Assembly: GCA_020072815.1 (NCBI GenBank)
Contig: JAIQGE010000017.1
Coordinates: 62,001-126,000 of the forward strand
DNA from: Terriglobia bacterium
Lineage (GTDB): Bacteria; Acidobacteriota; Terriglobia; Terriglobales; Acidobacteriaceae
Direction: 5' to 3'
Length of the DNA stretch: 64,000 nt
Shown here one piece after another: positions 15,027-28,575 of the stretch. A model generated the notes under the pieces. That model worked only from the letters and a program-made list of their open reading frames with translations, was not told where the DNA came from and ran no database searches. Position 1 is the stretch's first letter; the number at the start of each line of letters is the position of its first letter. The translations under genes were made by a program, and so were the position numbers.

Positions 15027-16316
15027 CTAGTCCCTCACTGTCTCCGCGATCCACCCGCCGCCCACCACCAGATCATCTTGGTAGAACACCACCGCCTGTC
15101 CCGGAGTGATGGCCCTTTGCGGCTGATCGAAGGTGACCAGCACTTCGCCGTTGGGTGCCGGCTCGATAGTCGCCGGGGCAGGCTCATGGCGATGGCGAAT
15201 CTTCGCAGTCACGCGCAGTGGCGCGTGGGCTTGCACGCGCAATGGCGCGTCGGCCGAGACACCAACTCCCGCGCTGCCCTGCCGCCGAATCTCCTCACCC
15301 AGATCATCAAACGCAATCCAGTTCAAGTCGCGGGCGATCAGCCGGGTGTGCAGCAGATCGTCATTGCCACCCACGGTGACTTTGCCTTCGGCGCCGTTGA
15401 TGTTGATCACGTACAACGGCGATCCCGTGGCCACACCCAGTCCCTTGCGCTGGCCCACGGTGAAGTTGTGGACGCCGTCATGGCGGCCCAGCACCTTGCC
15501 GTCCGTGGTGACCAGGTCGCCGGAAGTGTCTGGCAGGCTCTCGCCCTGCTCGCCCAGGTAGGCGTCAATGAATCGCTTGTAATCCCCGCCGGGAACGAAG
15601 CAAATTTCCTGCGAATCCGGCTTCTCCGCCAGAGCAAGGCCGTGCTGGCGTGCCAGCTCGCGCACCTGCGGCTTGGTCATGTGGCCCAGGGGAAAGCGCG
15701 TGCGGCTGAGCTGCTCTTGCGTCAGGCCAAAGAGAAAATATGTCTGGTCCTTGGCCGGGTCAGCGGCCCGGCGCAGCAGCCAACGGTTGCGCGCGGAATC
15801 GAATTCGCAGCGCGCATAATGTCCTGTCGCCAGCAGGTCAGCGCCGATCTGCCGCGCGGTAAGCAGCAACTGATCGAACTTCAGATGGTTATTGCACAGG
15901 CTGCACGGGATGGGCGTACGTCCGGAGAGATACTCCTGGACGAATGGACGCACCACGTCGCGTTCAAAGCGCTCCTCATGGTTGACCACGTAATACGGAA
16001 TGTCCAGGTCCTGAGCGACGCGACGCGCGTCGTAAACGTCCTCAATCGAGCAACAGCGTCCCTGCACCTGCTCGGGCATGCCTTCGCGCCCGGCCAGGCG
16101 GCGCTGGTTCCAGAGCTGCATGGTCAGGCCGACCACGTTGTAGCCTTCGGCGCGCAGCATGGCCGCGACGGTGGACGAATCCACACCGCCGGACATTGCC
16201 ACGGCAACCGTCTCGGTTGCGGCCACTGCGACCGTGCCGGTCGCGGCTACGGCAACCGTCTCGGCAGCCGTGCTGGCCACGGGCATGGCCTCATCGGACA
16301 TGGGAAATCGGGACAT
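15027..16316 (-). CDS. mnmA: tRNA 2-thiouridylase MnmA with repeat-expanded N-terminus
   Basis: 429 residues; typical MnmA is about 360-380. The PP-loop motif AMSGGVDSS binds ATP. CSLCNNHLKFD holds the first catalytic Cys, TGHYARC the tRNA/ATP site, and the C-terminal barrel includes VGQRKGLGV. The enzyme thiolates U34 of Lys, Glu and Gln tRNAs using sulfur relayed from a cysteine desulfurase (one is encoded at 27412-28575). Oddly, the first beta strand ETVAVA is repeated three times in front of the PP-loop (ETVAVAATGTVAVAATETVA...), and a second in-frame repeat (APLRVQAHAPLRV) lies near residue 370. Both add length without disrupting motifs. Confidence 0.95.
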   Translation of the reverse strand: MSRFPMSDEAMPVASTAAETVAVAATGTVAVAATETVAVAMSGGVDSSTVAAMLRAEGYNVVGLTMQLWNQRRLAGREGMPEQVQGRCCSIEDVYDARRVAQDLDIPYYVVNHEERFERDVVRPFVQEYLSGRTPIPCSLCNNHLKFDQLLLTARQIGADLLATGHYARCEFDSARNRWLLRRAADPAKDQTYFLFGLTQEQLSRTRFPLGHMTKPQVRELARQHGLALAEKPDSQEICFVPGGDYKRFIDAYLGEQGESLPDTSGDLVTTDGKVLGRHDGVHNFTVGQRKGLGVATGSPLYVININGAEGKVTVGGNDDLLHTRLIARDLNWIAFDDLGEEIRRQGSAGVGVSADAPLRVQAHAPLRVTAKIRHRHEPAPATIEPAPNGEVLVTFDQPQRAITPGQAVVFYQDDLVVGGGWIAETVRD

Positions 16317-19496: not shown

Positions 19497-20288
19497 TCAG
19501 CGTTTCGCGGTCCGGCGCAGCACTTCCAGGATTCCCGTCAGCAGCATGGCCGGAGTGGGCGGACAGCCGGGAATGTATGCGTCCACGCGCAGCAGTTTGT
19601 CGAGCGGACCGGAGACCGCATGGCTGGTGGCGAAGATTCCTCCGCTGCATCCGCATGCGCCTACCGCCACCACCAATTTGGGCGCGGGCGTGGCTTCATA
19701 TGTCTTTTTCACCGCCACCGCCATGTTGCGCGTGACCGGCCCGGTGACCAGCAGCATGTCCGCGTGTTTGGGCGACGCGACAAAATGAATGCCAAACCGC
19801 TCCAGGTCGTAGTAGGGGTTGGTCAGCGCCGCGATCTCCGCCTCGCATCCGTTGCACGAACCCGCATCCAGCTCGCGGACATTCAGCGCGCGGCCCAGCA
19901 TCTGGAAAATCTCCTGCCGAACTTCCGGCGCGCTGGGACGAACTTCCACCTCAGCGCCGCGCTCGCAATCGAAATAGCGGAGCAATTCCTGTCGCGATAC
20001 GCCGCAACCAGCAACGCGCTCCGCCTGCGAAAACGCCGCATGCTCAAAGCAGCGTCCGCAGCCAATGCATTTTCCGTAATCCAAACAGAGCAGTTCTTTG
20101 TCTTGCGGCTTGGCCATGGCCAGCGCCGCCGTCGGACAAACCTCGCCCACCTGCTTGGCCATCTCCGGGGTGAGCTTGGCGGCATTGACCTGAGGCATGC
20201 GGCCGCCTTCCGCGCGGCCCAGCAGCTCTTCCACCGTCACCAGACGGTTGGGAGCTTTCAAACTGCGGTGGATCACATCGAAGATCAT
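19497..20288 (-). CDS. Ehr-type complex small subunit (HyfI/NuoB-like) with N-terminal ferredoxin-like region
   Basis: 263 residues. The N-terminal 110 residues hold EVCPTAAL and CIGCGRC, enough ligands for one [4Fe-4S] cluster, as in NuoI/HyfH-type ferredoxins but short. The C-terminal part is the NuoB/hydrogenase small-subunit core, with proximal-cluster Cys residues in SCNGCEAEI, GACGCSGG and PGCPP. It passes electrons between a soluble donor or acceptor and the large subunit at the membrane. The fusion of ferredoxin and NuoB-like parts is unusual for complex I. It is the last gene of the operon; its ATG overlaps the stop of the large-subunit gene (ATGA). Confidence 0.88.
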   Translation of the reverse strand: MIFDVIHRSLKAPNRLVTVEELLGRAEGGRMPQVNAAKLTPEMAKQVGEVCPTAALAMAKPQDKELLCLDYGKCIGCGRCFEHAAFSQAERVAGCGVSRQELLRYFDCERGAEVEVRPSAPEVRQEIFQMLGRALNVRELDAGSCNGCEAEIAALTNPYYDLERFGIHFVASPKHADMLLVTGPVTRNMAVAVKKTYEATPAPKLVVAVGACGCSGGIFATSHAVSGPLDKLLRVDAYIPGCPPTPAMLLTGILEVLRRTAKR

Positions 20289-21754
20289 CGGTCACATCCG
20301 GAGTAAGAAAGATTGAAGCTCTTGTTGATCAAGGGAAAGTCCGCGATCACGTTGCCGATTACCGCGTGCGGCAGCGCCGGCCAGTTCTGGAACGATGGCG
20401 ACTTGATATAGCACCGTTGCAGCTTGCCGCCCTCGCCCTTCACCCAGTACAGCAGTTCGCCGCGCGGCGACTCCACCGCCGACCAGCCTTCGAAAGCAAC
20501 CGCCGGGGGAAGCTCCGCGCGAATTGGTCCGGACGAAAGCCGGCCCAGCGCGTCCGCCAGCAGCCGCGCCGAAACCACGACCTCTTCGATGCGAACCCGC
20601 GCGCGGGCCAGCACGTCACCGTAGCTAAGGCAAGGAACGTGGATCGGCAAGTCGCGGTAAGCTCCATACGGATGGTCGCGACGTACATCTCGATTGGCGC
20701 CGCTTGCTCGCGCCACCGGTCCGACGACCGCCAGGTCCTCCACCACGGCACTCGCCAAAACCCCGGCGCCTTCAAACCGGGCCTGGACTGACGGCCGGTC
20801 GAGAATAGTGTTCGCTATCTTGGCGAACTCGCTCGCCGCCTGGGCCACTGCTTTGCGCAGGGCCTCCGCCGCAGAGGGAGAAATGTCTCTCGCCACTCCG
20901 CCGGGCACGGCAATTCCCTTCCAGAAACGCGTGCCCACGGCGCGCGAGCTGGCCTGCATCAGGTCTTCTTTGATGCGGCTGCAATAGGCCGCGGGCAGCA
21001 CAAACGCTACGTCGTTGGAAAGCGCGCCCACGTCGGCGATGTGGGAGATCATTCTCTCCAGTTCCAGACCGATCAGCCGCACCAACTGCGCCTGCTTCGG
21101 CGCGACGATCGCATGCGCCGCTTCGATCGCCTGGCAATTGGCCACCGCGTGAGCAAAGCAGTTGTCCCCGGAGACCGACTCGGCGATCATCGGCCCGTAC
21201 GCCACGGGCGTTCCCTGGAACAATTTCTCCGTGCCTTTATGCGTGTAGAAGTGGCGCAGTTCCAGGTACAGCACGTTGTCGCCGACCACGCTGAAGCGGA
21301 AGTGCCCAGGCTCGATGATGCCCGCGTGCACCGGCCCGACTGCCACTTCGCACACTCCCTCGCCTTCCACCTTCAGGAAATCATAACGCTCGTCAGCCCA
21401 GGGGGCGGATTGAGCGTCAGCGACCATCGGGTGCAATCCCCGAGGCCAATTCTCATGCAGCAGCAGAGGCCGAAGATCAGGATGGCCTGTCAGTTCAACA
21501 CCGTACTGGTCCTGGATCTCCCGCTCATACCACGCCGCCGCCGGGGTGACGGGCGTGATGGACTGCAGCGCACCGTTTACCGTTTCCTCCAGCACGCGAT
21601 AGCCTTCTCTCGGAACGTCCAGAATGTAATGCACTTTGATTGCGCCGGCGTCTGCAGAAGCAAACTCGCACACCAGTCGCGCGCCCGCCTGAAGCAGCCG
21701 CGTCGCCTCGGCCACCGCCCATCCAATGCGCTGTTGTTGTGGCGTGGTACTCAT
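20285..21754 (-). CDS. Ehr-type complex large subunit (NuoCD/HycE-like) lacking NiFe ligands
   Basis: 489 residues from the ATG at 21754, which overlaps the stop of the upstream antiporter-like gene. The NuoC/HycE-like N-terminus (about 1-140) includes WYEREIQDQYGVELTGHPDL. The NuoD/[NiFe] large-subunit core follows (GHFRFSVVGDN, HIADVGALSNDV). In hydrogenases the two CxxC pairs hold NiFe. Here the N-terminal site reads ESVSGDNCFAHA instead of ERxCGxCGFAH, and the C-terminus ends NLSYSGCDR instead of DPCxxCxDR, so neither CxxC pair is present. This is the hallmark of energy-converting hydrogenase-related (Ehr) complexes. Hydrogen chemistry is therefore not expected; the real substrate is unknown. 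Confidence 0.9.
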   Translation of the reverse strand: MSTTPQQQRIGWAVAEATRLLQAGARLVCEFASADAGAIKVHYILDVPREGYRVLEETVNGALQSITPVTPAAAWYEREIQDQYGVELTGHPDLRPLLLHENWPRGLHPMVADAQSAPWADERYDFLKVEGEGVCEVAVGPVHAGIIEPGHFRFSVVGDNVLYLELRHFYTHKGTEKLFQGTPVAYGPMIAESVSGDNCFAHAVANCQAIEAAHAIVAPKQAQLVRLIGLELERMISHIADVGALSNDVAFVLPAAYCSRIKEDLMQASSRAVGTRFWKGIAVPGGVARDISPSAAEALRKAVAQAASEFAKIANTILDRPSVQARFEGAGVLASAVVEDLAVVGPVARASGANRDVRRDHPYGAYRDLPIHVPCLSYGDVLARARVRIEEVVVSARLLADALGRLSSGPIRAELPPAVAFEGWSAVESPRGELLYWVKGEGGKLQRCYIKSPSFQNWPALPHAVIGNVIADFPLINKSFNLSYSGCDR

Positions 21755-23205
21755 GAGCGCAATACCGCCATTGCTTGATGGATGATTTGAATCAGAGCGC
21801 TGGGCAAGTGCAGGCCCAGGGCCACCACGATCACCGCGCACAATGCCATGGCCGTGATCTCCGTCCTGCTCGTCTTGGTTTTCTCCGGGATGGTCGGCGC
21901 GCCGCTCAGCATTCTTTGCAACTGGAAAATCAGCGCGCCAAATCCGATCACCAGCGCCAGCAGCACCGCCGTGACCACAGCGTGTTGCTCCTGGGAAAAT
22001 GCCGCGCTCAAAATCGCAAATTCGCTCACGAACAGGGAGAACGGAGGCAGCCCGACAATCGCCAGCACTCCAATGATGAGAAATACGCTGGTCCAGCGCA
22101 TACTGCGCGCCATCCCCGTGATGCGCTCCAGCTTCAGCGTGCCAAAATTTTCGCGCACGTTGCCGGCGGCGAAAAACAACAGTGACTTGGCCGCGGAATG
22201 GTTGAAGGTGTGCAGCAGCGCGCCGTAGAGTCCCAGCGGCACGCCAATGCCAATCCCCGTGGCGACGATGCCCATGTGTTCCACGCTGCTGTACGCCAGC
22301 AGGCGCTTCAAGTCGCGCTGCACGATCATCAGCAAAGAAGCGCCAATCAGGGACAGCGCCCCAAAGATCAGCAGCATGGTATGGCTGAAGTCCGGTCCCA
22401 GGGCGCGGACGCTGATGGCGTCATAGCGCAGCAGCGCGTACATGGCGCAGTTCAGCAACGCGGCGGAAAGCATGGCGCTGATGGGTGAAGGCGCTTCGGC
22501 GTGAGCGTCCGGCAGCCAGCTGTGCATGGGCACGAACCCGACCTTGGTGCCGTATCCCACGGCCACAAACAGAAACGCAAGTTTCACCAGGTTGGAGACG
22601 CGTCCCATCTCCGGCGCGGCCTTCATCAGGGCCGTCCAGTCCAGCGCGGAAGGCGCCGGAACTCCGGAGCGCGCCGCCGCCAGATAAAGTGCGATCGTCC
22701 CGAACAACGCGAACGCGATTCCCACCGTGCAGACCACCAGGTACTTCCATCCGGCTTCCACCGCGCCTTCGGTGTTGTAAAAGCCGACCAGCAAAGCCGA
22801 CGCGAGCGTGGTGGCCTCCATCATGATCCACAGCAGACCCAGGTTCTCCGCCAGATACGCCGCCAGCATGGCGAAGATGAACAGGAACGTGAGGCAGTAA
22901 AACCATCGTGGCGAGGAGAACCTGCCCGCCGGCACATGGCGCAGGTAGTTGACCGAATAAAGCAGCGTCACCAGAAAAACGAAGGCCAGTCCCAGCAGGA
23001 AGAGAGACGTCAGCCCATCGGCGCGGAAGTAATGTCCCCATGCGACTTGGGTCTGCCTGTGGACCTGAAGCACCACGTTCAGAAGCAGCCCAACTTCCAC
23101 ACATCCGCCGGTTACGGCCACCGTGGTCGCGCGGCGTCCGTCGCTGAAAGCCAGCACCAGCGCGGCCATCACCACGGGAAGAATCAGTGGAAGCAGGAGG
23201 GTCAT
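21751..23205 (-). CDS. Antiporter-like membrane subunit (HyfF/NuoN-like)
   Basis: 484 residues, about 14 membrane helices. It is a member of the complex I/Mrp antiporter-like family. It shows the TM5 glutamate in WIMMEATTLASAL, the broken-helix lysine in VGYGTKVGFVPMHSWLPDAH and the central HTFNHSAAKSLLFFAAG lysine. These residues make up the proton or sodium pathway in related subunits. It would be one of two ion-pumping modules of the Ehr-type complex. Its stop overlaps the start of the large-subunit gene (ATGA), and it begins 3 bases after the HyfE-like gene. Confidence 0.92.
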   Translation of the reverse strand: MTLLLPLILPVVMAALVLAFSDGRRATTVAVTGGCVEVGLLLNVVLQVHRQTQVAWGHYFRADGLTSLFLLGLAFVFLVTLLYSVNYLRHVPAGRFSSPRWFYCLTFLFIFAMLAAYLAENLGLLWIMMEATTLASALLVGFYNTEGAVEAGWKYLVVCTVGIAFALFGTIALYLAAARSGVPAPSALDWTALMKAAPEMGRVSNLVKLAFLFVAVGYGTKVGFVPMHSWLPDAHAEAPSPISAMLSAALLNCAMYALLRYDAISVRALGPDFSHTMLLIFGALSLIGASLLMIVQRDLKRLLAYSSVEHMGIVATGIGIGVPLGLYGALLHTFNHSAAKSLLFFAAGNVRENFGTLKLERITGMARSMRWTSVFLIIGVLAIVGLPPFSLFVSEFAILSAAFSQEQHAVVTAVLLALVIGFGALIFQLQRMLSGAPTIPEKTKTSRTEITAMALCAVIVVALGLHLPSALIQIIHQAMAVLRS

Positions 23206-23208
23206 CGC

Positions 23209-23871
23209 TTATCCCCGCAACTTTCGCAGCTTGGAGACGTCCAGATGGTCAAACGTTTCGCGAATGCGGAAGGTGAAAATGCCCATCAGGAAAACTCCCA
23301 TCACCAGATCAAACACAATGCCGATCTCGATCACCAGCGGCATGCCGAAGGTGGTGGTCAGTGCGGCCATAAAGATTCCGTTTTCCAGGACCAGCAGTCC
23401 CAGGATCTGCATCAGGGCTTTGTTGCGGCTGGTCATGAGGAAACAGCCGGTCAAGATGATGGCCACCGCGGCGGCCAGCGGGTCGCGGGCAACGTTCAAG
23501 TCCTTGGCATAGGACTGGACGGCGGAAAAAGCAATAAAGATGAGCACCACGGTGATGAACACCGAGCTGGCCGGCGAAATGGACGCGTTCACGTCGCGCG
23601 ACGTATGCAGCCGCTTGATCAGCCGGAACAGCGCCCACGGAATGGCGATGGCCTTGATCAGCGCCACCATCGCGCCGATCACGAACGCTTCCGCCGACCA
23701 GTGTAGATAGGCGATGGCCAGCACCTGCGCCGCAATCACCGCCGACTGCATGGCGAAGAGCGAGACACAAGCGGATATCCGTCGCGCGCCGGCCAGCAGC
23801 AGCAAGGTAAGAAAAATCAGCACGGCCGAAGAGCTGATGGCCTGGCTGGCGGCAAAGTTGATGATCTTCAT
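23209..23871 (-). CDS. HyfE-like membrane subunit
   Basis: 220 residues with six or seven membrane helices. The C-terminal part (MQILGLLVLENGIFMAAL) matches the NuoK/HyfE segment with its membrane glutamate, followed by a cytoplasmic tail FDHLDVSKLRKLRG. HyfE-like proteins combine a NuoK-like helix bundle with extra N-terminal helices and connect the antiporter modules to the NuoH-like subunit. The gene overlaps its upstream neighbour by 4 bases and is followed within 3 bases by the next gene. Confidence 0.87.
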   Translation of the reverse strand: MKIINFAASQAISSSAVLIFLTLLLLAGARRISACVSLFAMQSAVIAAQVLAIAYLHWSAEAFVIGAMVALIKAIAIPWALFRLIKRLHTSRDVNASISPASSVFITVVLIFIAFSAVQSYAKDLNVARDPLAAAVAIILTGCFLMTSRNKALMQILGLLVLENGIFMAALTTTFGMPLVIEIGIVFDLVMGVFLMGIFTFRIRETFDHLDVSKLRKLRG

Positions 23872-24809
23872 GGTTGCCTTCTCATAATCACGGTGAACAC
23901 AATTGCCAGGATGGAAAGCGCCGTAGCAATGCCGAAAAATTCCGGCACCGCATACATGCGCAGCTTGGCTACCGAACTTTCAAGCACGGCGATCGCCAGC
24001 ATGGCGACCGCCAGTTTCGCGAGATACAGCACCAGGGATAATGCGACTGTTGCGGACGTCAGGCTGGTTGCCGTCCCCCACGGCGCAAACAGGGCCACCA
24101 GCAGCGCGATCAACAAATTGAGTTTGATGGCTTGCGCCCATTCCACGAACGCCAGGCTTGGCCCCGAGTATTCCAGCACCATGGCTTCATGAAGCATGGT
24201 GAGTTCCAGGTGCGTCGTAGGATTGTCCACCGGCATGCGCCCGGTCTCAGCGATGGCCACAAACAGCAGCGCCGTCAGGGCCAGCACGTGGACCACGGAG
24301 ATGTTGAAGAAGTTCTGCGCGCCGGTCCAGGCGACAATCGCTCCCAGGCTGCCAGCCTTGGCCGTCAGGGCCAGCGCCATCAAGGAAAGCACCAGCGGCG
24401 CTTCCGCCAGCACAGAAACCATCGCCTCGCGGCTGCCGCCCATGCCGCCAAAGCTGCTGCCGGAATCAAAAGCGCCCAGCACCATCACGAAACGCCCAAA
24501 GGCCAGCAGGTAGACCAGCAGGAAATAATCGCCGCTGAACGTAAGCACGCCGGCGGAAGCCACCACCGGCACGAATGCCGCTGCCGCCAGCATGAGCGCG
24601 AAACCCATGCGGGGCGCGGCGCGGAACAGCCATGAAGCCGATGGCGGCGTCAGGTCTTCCTTGCGAAACAACTTTCCCAAGTCGGCATACGGACGCCAGA
24701 TGCTGGCGCCTTGCCGACGCTGTAGCCTGGCCTTCAGCCGGGCAATAATCCCCCGCACCAGCGGCGCGCTCAAAATCAGAAAAGCGAATTGTGCCAGCCT
24801 GAGTCCCAT
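23868..24809 (-). CDS. HyfC/NuoH-like membrane subunit
   Basis: 313 residues, about eight membrane helices. The conserved acidic loop of the NuoH/HyfC family is present (AIAETGRMPVDNPTTHLELT and MLHEAMVLEYSGP), as is the N-terminal block RRQGASIWRPYADLGKLF. NuoH-type subunits anchor the NuoB/NuoD module and carry the E-channel at the quinone cavity of complex I. The stop of the preceding HyfB-like gene abuts this start directly, so expression is coupled. Confidence 0.92.
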   Translation of the reverse strand: MGLRLAQFAFLILSAPLVRGIIARLKARLQRRQGASIWRPYADLGKLFRKEDLTPPSASWLFRAAPRMGFALMLAAAAFVPVVASAGVLTFSGDYFLLVYLLAFGRFVMVLGAFDSGSSFGGMGGSREAMVSVLAEAPLVLSLMALALTAKAGSLGAIVAWTGAQNFFNISVVHVLALTALLFVAIAETGRMPVDNPTTHLELTMLHEAMVLEYSGPSLAFVEWAQAIKLNLLIALLVALFAPWGTATSLTSATVALSLVLYLAKLAVAMLAIAVLESSVAKLRMYAVPEFFGIATALSILAIVFTVIMRRQP

Positions 24810-26798
24810 TTACCGGAACCTCATCAGCAACAGCATGAAAACCAGGGCCAGAAAGATGTAGAGCAGGTACCACTGAATATTTCCCGTCTGCAGGCGCCGC
24901 AACTGCTGCGCGGTCGCCATGATGGCGTCCACCACCGGACGATATAGCAGCCGTTCATACGACAACGTTCGCGTGGAACGGTAGGAAATCGCTTTGGGGA
25001 AATACGGGCTGTCCGCGGGCGAAGTGTCCAGCTTGCGGTCGGCCCGGTAGACCGGAGAAAAGACGATGCGAATCGGCTTGGAAAACGATGTTGCCGTGTA
25101 CTGCATGCGCGCCGTCAACTGCGCCAGGCCGCATCCCCATGTGGGAGCCAGGCGGACCACCGCGCGGACCAACCACACTGCCGCGGCGCCGGCCAGCACC
25201 ACGACCGCGACTTTTTGAATTCCCGTGGCGATCGCGGCAATGGCGGCGAAGTCGCCGCCCGGCGCCAGCATCACCGTCACTTCCCACAGAGGACGAAGCA
25301 CCAGCATCGGCATCACGCCAATCAGCAAGCACGCGCCCGCCAGCACGCCAAGAGGCAGCAGCATGGAAAACGGCGGATTCTCCGGTGAATCCACTTCTGC
25401 TTGCCGCGGTCTTCCCAGAAACGCGGTCCCAAAAGTATTGGCAAAGCACGCTGCGGCCAGCGCTCCGGTCAACGCCAGCACGCCGGCCATCAGCGGAAGC
25501 AGAAGCTGCGGCAAAGTCTGGGCCACCTGTCCGCCTGCCAGAAATCCCTGGAAGGCCAGCCACTCGCCGATGAATCCGTTGAACATCGGCAGCCCGGCGA
25601 TGGAGACACATCCCACCAGCACAAAAAGCCCGGTCGCCGGCATGGTCTTCAAAAGGCCGCCGAGTTGGTTCAATTTCAGCGAATGCGTCCGGTAGGCGAT
25701 GGCGCCCGCTCCCAAGAAGAGCAAATTCTTAAAGATGGCGTGGTTGAGCGCGTGGACCAAAGCAGCCATCAGCGCCAGCGCGGCAAACGCGGGCGCTCCG
25801 TTGGCACGGCAGAGCATGCCTGCGCCAATCGCCAGATAGATGATGCCGATGTTCTCCACGCTGGAGTACGCCAGAAGCCGCTTGAGGTCAGTCTCCGACA
25901 TGGCGTAGAGAATTCCCAGGACCGCCGACGTCGCACCCGCGGCCAGCACCAGGTATCCGCCCCAGTCCGGCCCGCCGGAAAGAAAATCAAACACAAAGCG
26001 GAGAAAAACGTAGACCGCCGTCTTCAGCATGATGCCGGACATCAGGGCTGAAACCGGCGTGGGCGCGATGGGATGCGCCCTCGGCAACCACACATGCAGC
26101 GGAATGATTCCGGCTTTGGTCCCGAAGCCGAAAAAAGCCAGCAGGAAGATCGCCGCTTTCTCCGCGCCCGGCATGGTCTGGGCCGCCGCCCGGATCGCGG
26201 CAAAGGTAAGTGAAGGCGCTTGCGGCGCAAACAGCAGAAATGCCGACAGCACCAGCGCCGCCCCGGCATGCATGGTGAGCAAATAGAGGAAAATGTCGCG
26301 CCGTCGCTCTTCCGCGTCGCCTTCCAGAAAAATCAAGCCGGCGGAAAGCACGGTCATGAGTTCCCATCCGGCAAAAAAGGCAAACACCGTGGCGCTGCTC
26401 ACCACCATGACCATGGAGAGCAGGAACAGAGGCAAAAGCACCCAATACCACGCGGCGCGTGCGCGATCGTAGTGGTGCTCAATGTACCGGAAAGAATAGA
26501 CAACCGCCGGTATGGAGACGGCGCACACGATGAACAGGAATAACCCGCCCAGCCGGTCCAGCGAAAACATAAATTGAAGAGGCGGGAAAGGGCTAAGGAA
26601 AGAGAGACTGAAGTTGACGGGAACTCCGTACACCCACGCAGCGATTGCCAGGACGGTTCCGCTGGCCAGCGCCAGAACCGCGCTGTATGCTGCTCCAACT
26701 CGCAGCGCCTTGCCTGCCGGGCCGGCGACATGCGACCAGCCTGCCAGGAAGGAGGCTGCGACGAGCAAACTGAATAGGCCGCTGAACGCAATCAACAT
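24810..26798 (-). CDS. Large antiporter-like membrane subunit (HyfB/NuoL-like)
   Basis: 662 residues, about 15 membrane helices and a final helix (WYLLYIFLALVFMLLLMRF) after a cytoplasmic loop, as in HyfB. Proton-pathway residues are visible: Glu in FAGWELMTVL, Lys in FGFGTKAGIIPLHVWLP and Lys in HALNHAIFKNLLFLGAGAI. It is the first structural gene of the operon, 34 bases after the arsR-type gene. With 21751-24809 it forms the membrane arm of a hydrogenase-4-like, Ehr-type complex. Confidence 0.92.
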   Translation of the reverse strand: MLIAFSGLFSLLVAASFLAGWSHVAGPAGKALRVGAAYSAVLALASGTVLAIAAWVYGVPVNFSLSFLSPFPPLQFMFSLDRLGGLFLFIVCAVSIPAVVYSFRYIEHHYDRARAAWYWVLLPLFLLSMVMVVSSATVFAFFAGWELMTVLSAGLIFLEGDAEERRRDIFLYLLTMHAGAALVLSAFLLFAPQAPSLTFAAIRAAAQTMPGAEKAAIFLLAFFGFGTKAGIIPLHVWLPRAHPIAPTPVSALMSGIMLKTAVYVFLRFVFDFLSGGPDWGGYLVLAAGATSAVLGILYAMSETDLKRLLAYSSVENIGIIYLAIGAGMLCRANGAPAFAALALMAALVHALNHAIFKNLLFLGAGAIAYRTHSLKLNQLGGLLKTMPATGLFVLVGCVSIAGLPMFNGFIGEWLAFQGFLAGGQVAQTLPQLLLPLMAGVLALTGALAAACFANTFGTAFLGRPRQAEVDSPENPPFSMLLPLGVLAGACLLIGVMPMLVLRPLWEVTVMLAPGGDFAAIAAIATGIQKVAVVVLAGAAAVWLVRAVVRLAPTWGCGLAQLTARMQYTATSFSKPIRIVFSPVYRADRKLDTSPADSPYFPKAISYRSTRTLSYERLLYRPVVDAIMATAQQLRRLQTGNIQWYLLYIFLALVFMLLLMRFR

Positions 26799-26832
26799 GA
26801 GCCGGCGTCCCTCCAGTCAACGGCTTCGCCGC

Positions 26833-27201
26833 TCATCGCGGGCTCCCCGATGAAACGTCCAGCTGAGTCAGCATGTCCTGCACGCTGACCAGTTGGTTGT
26901 TGAAAATTTCTCTGGCCACGTCCAGCAGCCGGAAGATCGACCGGTCGCGGATGGAATAGAAGACTCCCTGACCTTCTTTCCTTCCCACCACGATGTTGCG
27001 TCCCCGCAACTGGGCCAGTTGTTGCGACAACGTGCTCTGCTCCACGCCCAGTCGCGCGCATAAATCGTTGACCCCGATTTCGCCATCGCGGAGCGCGTCA
27101 ATAATGCGGATGCGCAGCGGATGGGCCAGGGCCTTGAAAAATTCCGCCTTGAACCTGGCCAGGTCAGAAGCGTCAAAGCCGGTTTTTTTTGCGCGAGGCA
27201 T
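26833..27201 (-). CDS. ArsR-family transcriptional regulator of the Ehr-type operon
   Basis: 122 residues, a winged helix with FFKALAHPLRIRIIDALRDG (helices 1-2), recognition helix VEQSTLSQQLAQLR and wing VVGRKEGQGVFYSI. The ELCVC metal site of ArsR/SmtB is absent; the equivalent position is GVNDLCARLG with one Cys, so a classical metal sensor is unlikely. It is the first gene of the operon 27201-19497 and probably represses its own promoter. What it senses is unknown; redox state or a ligand are both possible. Confidence 0.9.
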   Translation of the reverse strand: MPRAKKTGFDASDLARFKAEFFKALAHPLRIRIIDALRDGEIGVNDLCARLGVEQSTLSQQLAQLRGRNIVVGRKEGQGVFYSIRDRSIFRLLDVAREIFNNQLVSVQDMLTQLDVSSGSPR

Positions 27202-27227: not shown

Positions 27228-27251
27228 TATATATGAATATTACAATATATA
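27228..27251. promoter_or_regulatory. AT-rich inverted repeat, candidate ArsR operator/promoter
   Basis: TATATAT and ATATATA flank a 10-base spacer, 27 bases upstream of the arsR start. The surrounding 27221-27251 is extremely AT-rich in a GC-rich genome and includes a TATAAT-like box on the minus strand. Size, symmetry and position fit an autoregulatory ArsR site. Confidence 0.5.
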
Positions 27252-27411: not shown

Positions 27412-28575
27412 CTATCGGGCGTGCTGCTTTTGGAATACCGGAGAGATCTCGCGCAGCCGTCCCACCACCTCAGGAATCACCTTGATGGCGAAGTCTATGT
27501 CCTCGTGCGTGGTCTGCTTGCCCAGGCTAACGCGGATGCTTGCCCGCGCACGCTGGTGCGGCAGCCCCATAGCCAGCAGCACGTGCGAAGGTTCAATCGC
27601 GCCCGATGAGCACGCTGCGCCGCTGGAAACCGCCAGCCCTTTCAAGTCCAGGGCAATCACCAGGGCTTCGCCTTCGCAATGGTCGAACCAGAGATTCGTC
27701 GTGTTAGGGACACGCGGCGCTCCCAGTCCGTTCACGCCTGCGTCTTCCACCACGCGCAAGACTGAATCCTGCAGGCGGTCGCGCTCTGCGGCCATTTCCG
27801 CCGGTCCGTCACTATGCAACCAATGCAGCGCGATCTCCACAGCCTTGCCCAGGCCCACGATTCCCGGCAGGTTTTCCGTGCCGGCGCGGCGCTGGCGCTC
27901 ATGACTGCCGCCATAAATCAGCGGCTGGATCAGTGTTCCCTTCTTGACGAACAGCGCCCCTGTCCCTTGCGGCCCGTGGATCTTATGTCCGGAGATGCTC
28001 AGCGCGTCGCAACCGATCTTGGCGACGTCAACCGGAACTTTGCCCGCGGCCTGGACTGCGTCAGTATGGAAGAAGACGTCGGCTTCGCGCGCGATGCGGC
28101 CAATCTCTTCCACCGGCTGCAACACGCCGGTTTCATTGTTGGCCATCATGATGCTGATCAGCCGGGTGTTGGACCGCAGCGCCTTGCGGACTTCCTGGGG
28201 ATCAACTTCTCCGCGGCCGTTGACCGCGACGTACGTCACTTCGCACCCGGTTTCTTCCAGCCGCTTGCAGGTCTTGAGCACCGCGCTGTGCTCGATGGTG
28301 GAAGTAATCACGTGGTCGCCGCGCGCAACCAGTCCGAAGATGGCGGCGTTGTCAGCTTCCGTGCCGCCACTGGTAAAAACGATCTCCGCCGGACGCGCAT
28401 TCAGCAGCGCGGCTACGTGCCCGCGCGCCCGCTCCACCGCCGCCCGCGCATTCTGCCCGTAATGGTGAATGGACGAAGCATTGCCAAACCCTTCCAGATA
28501 GAAAGGCTTCATGGCCTCAAACACTTCCGGCAGGATGGGAGTGGTGGCGTTGTTGTCCAGGTACACGCGATGCAT
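27412..28575 (-). CDS. Cysteine desulfurase (NifS/IscS type)
   Basis: 387 residues. It starts VYLDNNATTPILPEVFEAM, the hallmark of the class V aminotransferase desulfurases. The PLP lysine lies in ISGHKIHGPQG, and Cys322 in SSGAACSSGAIEPSH is the persulfide-forming residue. The C-terminus RASIRVSLGKQTTHEDI is also typical. It converts cysteine to alanine and supplies sulfur for Fe-S clusters and tRNA thiolation. No iscU, iscR or nifU is adjacent, so the scaffold partner lies elsewhere. The GCCCG...CGGGC hairpin at 27406-27420 overlaps the stop codon. Confidence 0.95.
   Translation of the reverse strand: MHRVYLDNNATTPILPEVFEAMKPFYLEGFGNASSIHHYGQNARAAVERARGHVAALLNARPAEIVFTSGGTEADNAAIFGLVARGDHVITSTIEHSAVLKTCKRLEETGCEVTYVAVNGRGEVDPQEVRKALRSNTRLISIMMANNETGVLQPVEEIGRIAREADVFFHTDAVQAAGKVPVDVAKIGCDALSISGHKIHGPQGTGALFVKKGTLIQPLIYGGSHERQRRAGTENLPGIVGLGKAVEIALHWLHSDGPAEMAAERDRLQDSVLRVVEDAGVNGLGAPRVPNTTNLWFDHCEGEALVIALDLKGLAVSSGAACSSGAIEPSHVLLAMGLPHQRARASIRVSLGKQTTHEDIDFAIKVIPEVVGRLREISPVFQKQHAR

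Follow-up and report, generated by a model that had tools for sequence, protein, structure and literature searches.

Introduction

What can a complex that is built like a membrane-bound [NiFe] hydrogenase still do once every ligand of its metal site has been replaced? The question is raised by a locus of a Terriglobia bacterium (contig JAIQGE010000017.1, positions 62,001 to 126,000; this whole stretch of 64,000 nucleotides is called the window here), in which an ArsR-type regulator gene and six structural genes, hyfB-C-E-F-G-I, occupy positions 19497–27201 on the minus strand. Judged by its encoded subunits, the operon is that of an Ehr complex. We consider this complex, at a rough probability of 0.5, to be an ion-translocating relative of complex I that contains a metal-free pocket and is fed by a ferredoxin-like donor; it would thus move ions, and it should not make or use H2.

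Ehr complexes are found in acidobacteria, nitrifiers, archaea, bacteria of the candidate phyla radiation (CPR) and the tubercle bacillus. Their function is still called unknown in the literature (papers are cited throughout for the excerpts of them used here), in agreement with an earlier note on this DNA, which had described Ehr as an established class without a known substrate. Three findings now make the question testable: a regulator of the operon's own whose candidate operator is defined, a set of conserved pocket residues, and relatives that naturally do without the cluster through which electrons would enter. These clusterless relatives, in which the pocket is kept, question whether Ehr works by redox chemistry at all.

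Results

The operon and its metal-free large subunit

27229..27248: operator-like palindrome ATATTGTAATATTCATATAT (minus-strand sequence), 27 bases before the start of arsR
26833..27201, minus strand: arsR, Rv0081-like ArsR/SmtB regulator, 122 aa (NF033788, 85.2 bits; PDB 6jmi, E 5.9e-18)
24810..26798, minus strand: hyfB/NuoL-like antiporter subunit, 662 aa (PF00361, E 1.4e-49; channel residues E146, K228, K306 and K357 conserved)
23868..24809, minus strand: hyfC/NuoH-like membrane anchor, 313 aa (PF00146, E 2.8e-41; E202 and E208 conserved, E213 Glu/Asp)
23209..23871, minus strand: hyfE-like membrane subunit, 220 aa (NF008556, 89.7 bits against a cut-off of 136; PF00420, 20.7 bits against 26.1; both below cut-off)
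21751..23205, minus strand: hyfF-like antiporter subunit, 484 aa (PF00361, E 1.1e-54; E130, K154, K221 and K340 conserved, K300 Lys/Arg)
20285..21754, minus strand: large subunit (HycE/NuoCD-like; 30 kDa + 49 kDa), 489 aa from ATG, NiFe ligands replaced (Pfam/NCBIfam, alignment)
21158..21181, minus strand: ESVSGDNC codons, residues 192–199, former ERxCGxC motif (sequence and alignment; coordinates counted from the gene start at 21754)
20288..20314, minus strand: NLSYSGCDR codons, residues 481–489, former DPCxxCxxR motif (sequence and alignment; coordinates counted from the gene start)
19497..20288, minus strand: small subunit, 263 aa, N-terminal ferredoxin-like domain and NuoB/HyfI domain (PF01058, E 2.8e-32)

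The earlier note had delimited this operon exactly. It had counted five genes, where there are six structural genes in addition to arsR; the subunit types that it had assigned (two antiporter-like, one HyfE-like, one HyfC/NuoH-like, one NuoCD/HycE-like, and a ferredoxin-NuoB fusion) are borne out by the Pfam and NCBIfam families. Neighboring structural genes directly adjoin, share 4 bp or leave a gap of 3 bp, and arsR is set off from hyfB by 34 bp.

In the alignment with HycE, ESVSGDNC takes the place of DRVCGICG, and NLSYSGCDR that of DPCYSCTDR, as the earlier note had correctly read from the two motifs, and all four NiFe ligand positions carry residues other than cysteine (S195, N198, S483 and G486). 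Its term 'cysteine-less' thus holds for the ligand positions and not literally, C199 and C487 being located one residue past the former second and fourth ligands. Across 100 aligned Ehr rows, Cys occurs at position 195 in two, and at 198, 483 and 486 in none of the listed letters; as aligned, the ligand loss is not the product of chance. Intact CxxC pairs at other positions, which had been named as evidence that would speak against the assignment, do not occur in the large subunit. The encoded protein is predicted to adopt the HycE fold, with a flexible loop 142–147, and its gene stops at the position that matches HycE 537 in the alignment, which we take to be the C-terminal cleavage site of HycE. 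A cleavable C-terminal tail is thus missing. A genome scan located the Ehr operon on contig C17, the sole [NiFe] large subunit of the genome together with HypD on C29, and one NuoD on C3 (HypD being the one maturation gene searched among hyp genes and proteases).

Around the lost metal site, G196, E148, N477, K478, Y484 and D488 are present in 100% of the 100 Ehr rows, S483 and G486 in 99% and D197 in 95%. The survey loci had been chosen by the peptides HAG[IT]IEPG or NKSFNLSY, so that invariance within these two stretches is partly selected; the SGD triplet (195–197) and the small subunit lie outside both patterns. E148 corresponds to E21 of MbhL, provided that the first 13 aligned residues carry no gap.

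The pocket might be thought to take up a quinone headgroup, which would make the complex a ferredoxin:quinone oxidoreductase of the complex I type. This is improbable, as the headgroup positions H38 and Y87 of Thermus thermophilus Nqo4 are occupied by I147 and G196 in each of the 100 Ehr rows, versus His and Tyr in the 14 NuoD rows, and as the loop is hydrogenase-like (EPGHF). With both headgroup residues missing from every Ehr row, we rejected a quinone site of the complex I type.

The two displaced cysteines invite a different idea, namely a disulfide or sulfane reductase, loosely similar to the MBS complex of Pyrococcus, in which C199 and C487 would form a redox-active pair. Both residues are present in the ten complete rows of the window clade (10/10), C199 is never seen alone in a complete row, and MBS, a relative that has lost two ligand cysteines, reduces polysulfide (PMC7684303). 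Their co-occurrence is nonetheless weak evidence, because the pair corresponds to a single group of the tree. C487 is missing from 85 and C199 from 90 of the 100 Ehr rows, and five rows (L067, L075, L083, L084 and L099) have C487 without C199. MBS, moreover, acts via an open cluster site, its remaining C85 and C385 being dispensable (PMC7684303), whereas the CxxC of the window is of the hydrogenase type. We therefore give the cysteine-pair idea very little credence. An MBS-like open cluster was rejected, in view of the hydrogenase-type CxxC motif.

Family survey and tree

The 588 stretches of one contig scan contained at least 572 relatives, and 80 loci were retained from them, including loci from Nitrospira, Rokubacteria, Bradyrhizobium, Geomonas, archaea and CPR bacteria. 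Among the matches listed, the large subunit has its nearest named relative in Candidatus Acidiferrum, and matches at E 1e-60 or better occur in 93 of 396 genomes of the window's phylum (Ehr and cysteine-bearing relatives pooled). Duplicate genome copies were removed by shared sequence from the large-subunit rows, of which there were 138: 100 Ehr, 17 related and mostly cysteine-keeping, 5 group 4 hydrogenases, 14 NuoD, and 2 truncated rows that were dropped. A quick tree of 115 rows, calculated with the motif columns excluded and with 23 near copies or fragments left out, has 34 open forks.

In this tree the window clade is one group of nine rows with C199 and C487 (support 99), nested within a metal-free fork of 86 rows (SH-aLRT 87, not starred) that also contains the rows of Nitrospira moscoviensis, Geomonas and Thaumarchaeota and is separate from Escherichia coli Hyc and Hyf, from two group 4 hydrogenases of the same family, and from NuoD. 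The phylogeny against Ehr, Hyf and Nuo that the earlier note had proposed thus groups the window with metal-free Ehr rows, and the constellation it had regarded as damaging, a place inside active group 4 together with hyp genes, was not encountered, HypD being on another contig. An active group 4 hydrogenase is ruled out by the ligand loss, the C-terminus and the tree position. Because four metal-free Nitrospirota rows (C487 alone) and L071 fall outside the 86-row fork and the label Ehr takes three changes, a single origin of the metal-free state is disfavored.

Two further observations on large subunits deserve mention. An Ehr-near group keeps NiFe-type cysteines and has the Ehr loop, but where DPCxxC would stand, its sequence is NKSFELCY[SA]C or similar (L051, L052, L061, L063, L064, L065, L070, L078, L079, L080, L081, L090, L110, L129, L134 and L138). 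In the Desulfosporosinus protein (L071:4358-5827), which lies inside the cysteine-bearing group, only the second and fourth ligand cysteines remain, corresponding to a half-lost metal site.

An Rv0081-like regulator with a candidate operator

The ArsR protein of the window finds its best match among 27 PDB sequences in Rv0081 (6jmi, see the feature lines). The DHH of SmtB helix alpha5 aligns with DRS, which is in line with the earlier note as to the lack of the usual metal site, the SmtB site being the one compared singly. Its suggestion that the regulator would lead to the signal bore no fruit, as no signal identity was obtained from ArsR.

An Rv0081-like arsR is present on the same strand at the operon head in all 15 Acidobacteriota regions that have upstream room, out of 20 fetched (14 counted by script and L163, where arsR overlaps the next open reading frame (ORF), by hand; the other five regions are contig ends or fragments). 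The same holds for 3/3 Rokubacteria loci with room (L057, L060 and L068; two of these were counted in by hand, their hyfB having been missed by the script). Among the Acidobacteriota Ehr loci of the family survey with room, three of six have the gene, L036, L048 and L069 being without it, and it is found in 0/44 such loci of other groups (metal-free and cysteine-bearing pooled) and at 0/1 cysteine-bearing Acidobacteriota locus; from these ArsR counts, genome copies were not systematically removed. Of 84 plasmid records that matched, five loci were inspected, and an Rv0081-like ArsR was recognized in L171 only, given an incomplete plasmid gene table. In this Deinococcota locus (Allomeiothermus), the ArsR gene (127.7 bits) is followed by two small reverse ORFs before hyfB. 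Two other plasmid loci have helix-turn-helix genes that do not match the ArsR model, and the remaining two, one from Rhodococcus, have no annotated regulator nearby.

Variations on the arrangement were seen as well. At L136:1138-1494, an ArsR gene of the same type directly follows the Ehr large-subunit gene instead of heading the operon, and the palindrome described below is absent; at L056:1730-3520, a SulP-family transporter gene is inserted between arsR and hyfB of an acidobacterial Ehr operon.

A palindromic expectation maximization search of the arsR upstream regions returned ATATnnnAATATTnnnATAT with a score of 163.5, compared with at most 43.6 in 8 shuffles. The search used 21 of 23 regions, some coding bases included (L045, missed by the pattern, and L151, a near copy, were dropped), and the shuffles had 20 restarts versus 60 for the real set, with 8 runs per width. 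Scores above 9 were obtained in 19 of the 21 regions, L136 and L162 failing. With up to two mismatches allowed, the palindrome is present in 14/22 loci that have an Rv0081-like ArsR, 13 times before arsR and in L156 between arsR and hyfB, and in 9/79 loci that have none, the latter all at 34–48% G+C. In the 5.29 Mb genome it occurs in perfect form once, at 27229–27248 of the window, with one further site at two mismatches; a reversed control pattern likewise has one genome site at two mismatches. Within the window, three overlapping matches at up to three mismatches stand against 0.14 expected. As the palindrome is perfect only once in the genome, the window ArsR is probably a local autorepressor, and the conserved candidate site, with its sole perfect copy at the operon, lends support to the ArsR control that the earlier note had proposed. 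A promoter scan gave one match versus a mean of 1.7 in shuffles; terminator-like matches numbered 17 (shuffle mean 9.9, standard deviation 2.9), a result we did not use.

Small subunit

The proximal ligands C145, C148, C212 and C242 are all present in the aligned small subunit of the window, with the motifs CNGCE, GACG and PGCPP, which upholds the earlier view that its cluster cysteines are kept. The N-terminal domain adds CP and CxxCxxC, ligands sufficient for one further cluster. A structural model (pLDDT 84.5) best matched PDB entry 7z0s_G (150 columns) and also 6cfw_J (135 columns), the small subunits of formate hydrogenlyase and membrane-bound hydrogenase, respectively.

Neighboring genes

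Two genes flank the operon: one for a cysteine desulfurase (NifS/IscS family), the other mnmA; a sensor-kinase-like ORF lies in between. Both flanking genes (15027–16316 and 27412–28575) belong to sulfur transfer, and they flank Ehr in the window and in the congener L145; inspection by eye found this pair at none of the other listed loci. At L154:12740-15688, a HyaB-type [NiFe] large-subunit gene, preceded by a likely small-subunit gene, is located just downstream of an ArsR-Ehr operon.

Discussion

A proposed electron-fed ion translocator

Because the cluster ligands of the window are intact, we favor an electron-fed ion translocator for this complex. Electrons from a soluble ferredoxin or similar donor would enter the fused ferredoxin-like cluster and pass to the proximal [4Fe-4S] cluster, while the former NiFe pocket would bind a small proton-accepting molecule via residues such as E148, D197, K478 and Y484. 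Conversion of the bound molecule would then move the beta1–beta2 loop (142–147) and thereby drive the HyfC/HyfF/HyfB channel, as in complex I. ArsR would repress its own operon until a probably non-metal signal releases it. The expression of a relative is in line with this reading, since the proteome of Geobacter sulfurreducens on formate contained more of all Ehr subunits than it did under conditions with hydrogen (PMC7894505).

Several observations weigh against this reading. Beside the operon, no soluble partner was recognized, and the neighbor survey that the earlier note had suggested for this purpose found none among the flanking ORF clusters (882 flanking ORFs compared all against all after a crude ORF choice, with the 40 largest clusters judged by eye on the first 160 residues). 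The most widespread clusters resemble histidine kinases, response regulators and ABC ATPases, genes of the ATP synthase turn up repeatedly in CPR-type loci, and formate dehydrogenase was not recognized among the 40 largest clusters. The ferredoxin domain is missing in many Ehr operons, several ArsR-headed ones among them. As to the regulator, four of the five inspected plasmid Ehr loci lack an Rv0081-like ArsR, and L036, which belongs to the same clade as the window, has neither arsR nor the palindrome. Of 109 aligned small subunits (Ehr and relatives), 14 retain no more than one of the four proximal ligands, and the pocket is conserved in the 13 clusterless rows of the tree, which argues that electron feeding is not needed there for the role for which the pocket is selected.

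Clusterless relatives and a redox-free alternative

The 14 clusterless small subunits comprise seven rows of a CPR/Thermoleophilia branch, L089, L100, L109, two archaea, one Planctomycetales row and L171; their loci are L072, L073, L074, L085, L087, L094, L107, L089, L100, L109, L076, L105, L113 and L171, to which L192–L195 can be added. They have lost three or four proximal cysteines, with T/D, D and D as frequent replacements, in this order. The tree has 13 clusterless rows among 89, requiring at least three changes, with L171 off the tree. Among these 13, G196, D197, S483 and Y484 are present in 13 and S195 in 12. At 27 pocket and loop sites, the mean identity to the consensus is 0.969 in the clusterless rows versus 0.976 in 87 other Ehr rows (including rows for which no small subunit was seen), and outside these sites it is 0.477 versus 0.537. 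The channel charges of HyfB and HyfF and E202 of HyfC are unchanged between the two sets. As far as their sequences tell, then, clusterless Ehr complexes cannot pass electrons via the normal proximal cluster, yet they retain the pocket and the channel.

The existence of such members makes a redox-free, ligand-gated antiporter a serious rival for the family. In such a complex, the metal-free pocket would sense a small ligand or the proton state and gate H+/cation exchange by HyfB and HyfF, and Fe-S clusters, where kept, would tune or sense. Besides the repeated ligand loss and the preserved pocket and channel charges, it can draw on the clusterless protein being the sole PF01058 match in 5 of 13 such genomes, whose completeness is not given. 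In a sample of 192 genomes of one phylum, seven matches were obtained: five are Ehr, L073 included, all with a clusterless small subunit and the pocket kept (in one of them SGD reads AGD and a ferredoxin-like motif is present), and the other two are group 4 hydrogenases with all cysteines. In four loci of CPR-type genomes (L074:455-2693, L085:1124-3699, L100:498-3303 and L109:1015-3621), the Ehr genes come directly after those of the F1 ATP synthase and share their strand. Yet the window, like most rows, keeps the proximal ligands and the ferredoxin-like motif, and the clusterless lineages may have changed function. Selection enters as well: the loci were chosen on HAG[IT]IEPG or NKSFNLSY, and the 192-genome sample, although independent of the large-subunit motif, used a clusterless small subunit as its query. 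In L171:10311-11183, the Allomeiothermus silvanus plasmid locus with ArsR upstream, the small subunit lacks proximal ligands and keeps the ferredoxin-like motif, but SGD of the large subunit is degenerate. On balance we regard the antiporter as the less likely reading. Its extension to the whole family, according to which Ehr complexes are at heart ligand- or proton-gated antiporters derived from a dead hydrogenase, with the metal-free pocket as the conserved functional site and a dispensable and repeatedly lost Fe-S feed, the window complex being a redox-tuned version whose dedicated ArsR would respond to the ligand of the pocket or to some related signal, is equally tentative. If the redox-free reading is true, a complex I relative would work without redox chemistry, and this would have implications for the coupling between pocket and ion pumping in complex I itself.

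Comparison with known systems

The electron-fed translocator that we favor has to be viewed against what is on record for its relatives. The Ehr of Nitrospira is near group 4f and without CxxC (PMC10284858), and Ehr has also been described in Sulfobacillus (PMC4378227) and in ammonia-oxidizing archaea (PMC10432482). A formate dehydrogenase partner was proposed for the complex of Riflemargulisbacteria (PMC6349859) and a role in pH for that of Methylacidiphilum (PMC6688271). The complexes of Nitrospira, Geobacter, Methylacidiphilum and ammonia-oxidizing archaea have the same subunits as the window and no CxxC ligands. Compared with other Ehr, the window clade adds an Rv0081-like ArsR with the palindrome and the C199/C487 pair, and the one-cluster ferredoxin fusion of the window is common to some Ehr groups and missing in others.

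The Ehr class and the ArsR-Ehr pairing are already known; the pairing is not new in kind, because Mycobacterium tuberculosis Rv0081-Rv0087 has been named EHR, with its function undetermined (PMC6728331). Rv0081 has been named an autorepressor; it is reported to recognize an inverted repeat within its own promoter and to have no defined metal site (PMC6177252). It has been described as a regulatory hub (PMC6728331), whereas the window palindrome is perfect only once in the genome. As in the window, ArsR stands at the head of Rv0081-Rv0087, and the window ArsR is closest to Rv0081. The gene order presumably differs from that of the window, with the small subunit second.

In the literature excerpts at hand, no account was found of how widespread the pairing is, of the palindrome, of the two displaced cysteines or of repeated proximal-cluster loss, nor one that joins Acidobacteria, Ehr, hydrogenase and ArsR. 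For proximal-cluster loss, titles and abstract openings were covered, and Marreiros 2013 on the Ehr group may already note it.

Relative to E. coli HycE and HyfG, the window large subunit lacks the NiFe ligands and its gene ends at HycE 537, and the operon lacks HyfA, HyfD and HyfH genes. Pyrococcus MBS is, like the window complex, a complex I relative that has lost NiFe ligands and is without H38 and Y87 (PMC7684303). MBS, however, keeps two ligand cysteines and has a proximal cluster with three Cys ligands from a shortened, open motif (PMC7684303), whereas the window combines a CxxC motif with zero ligand cysteines.

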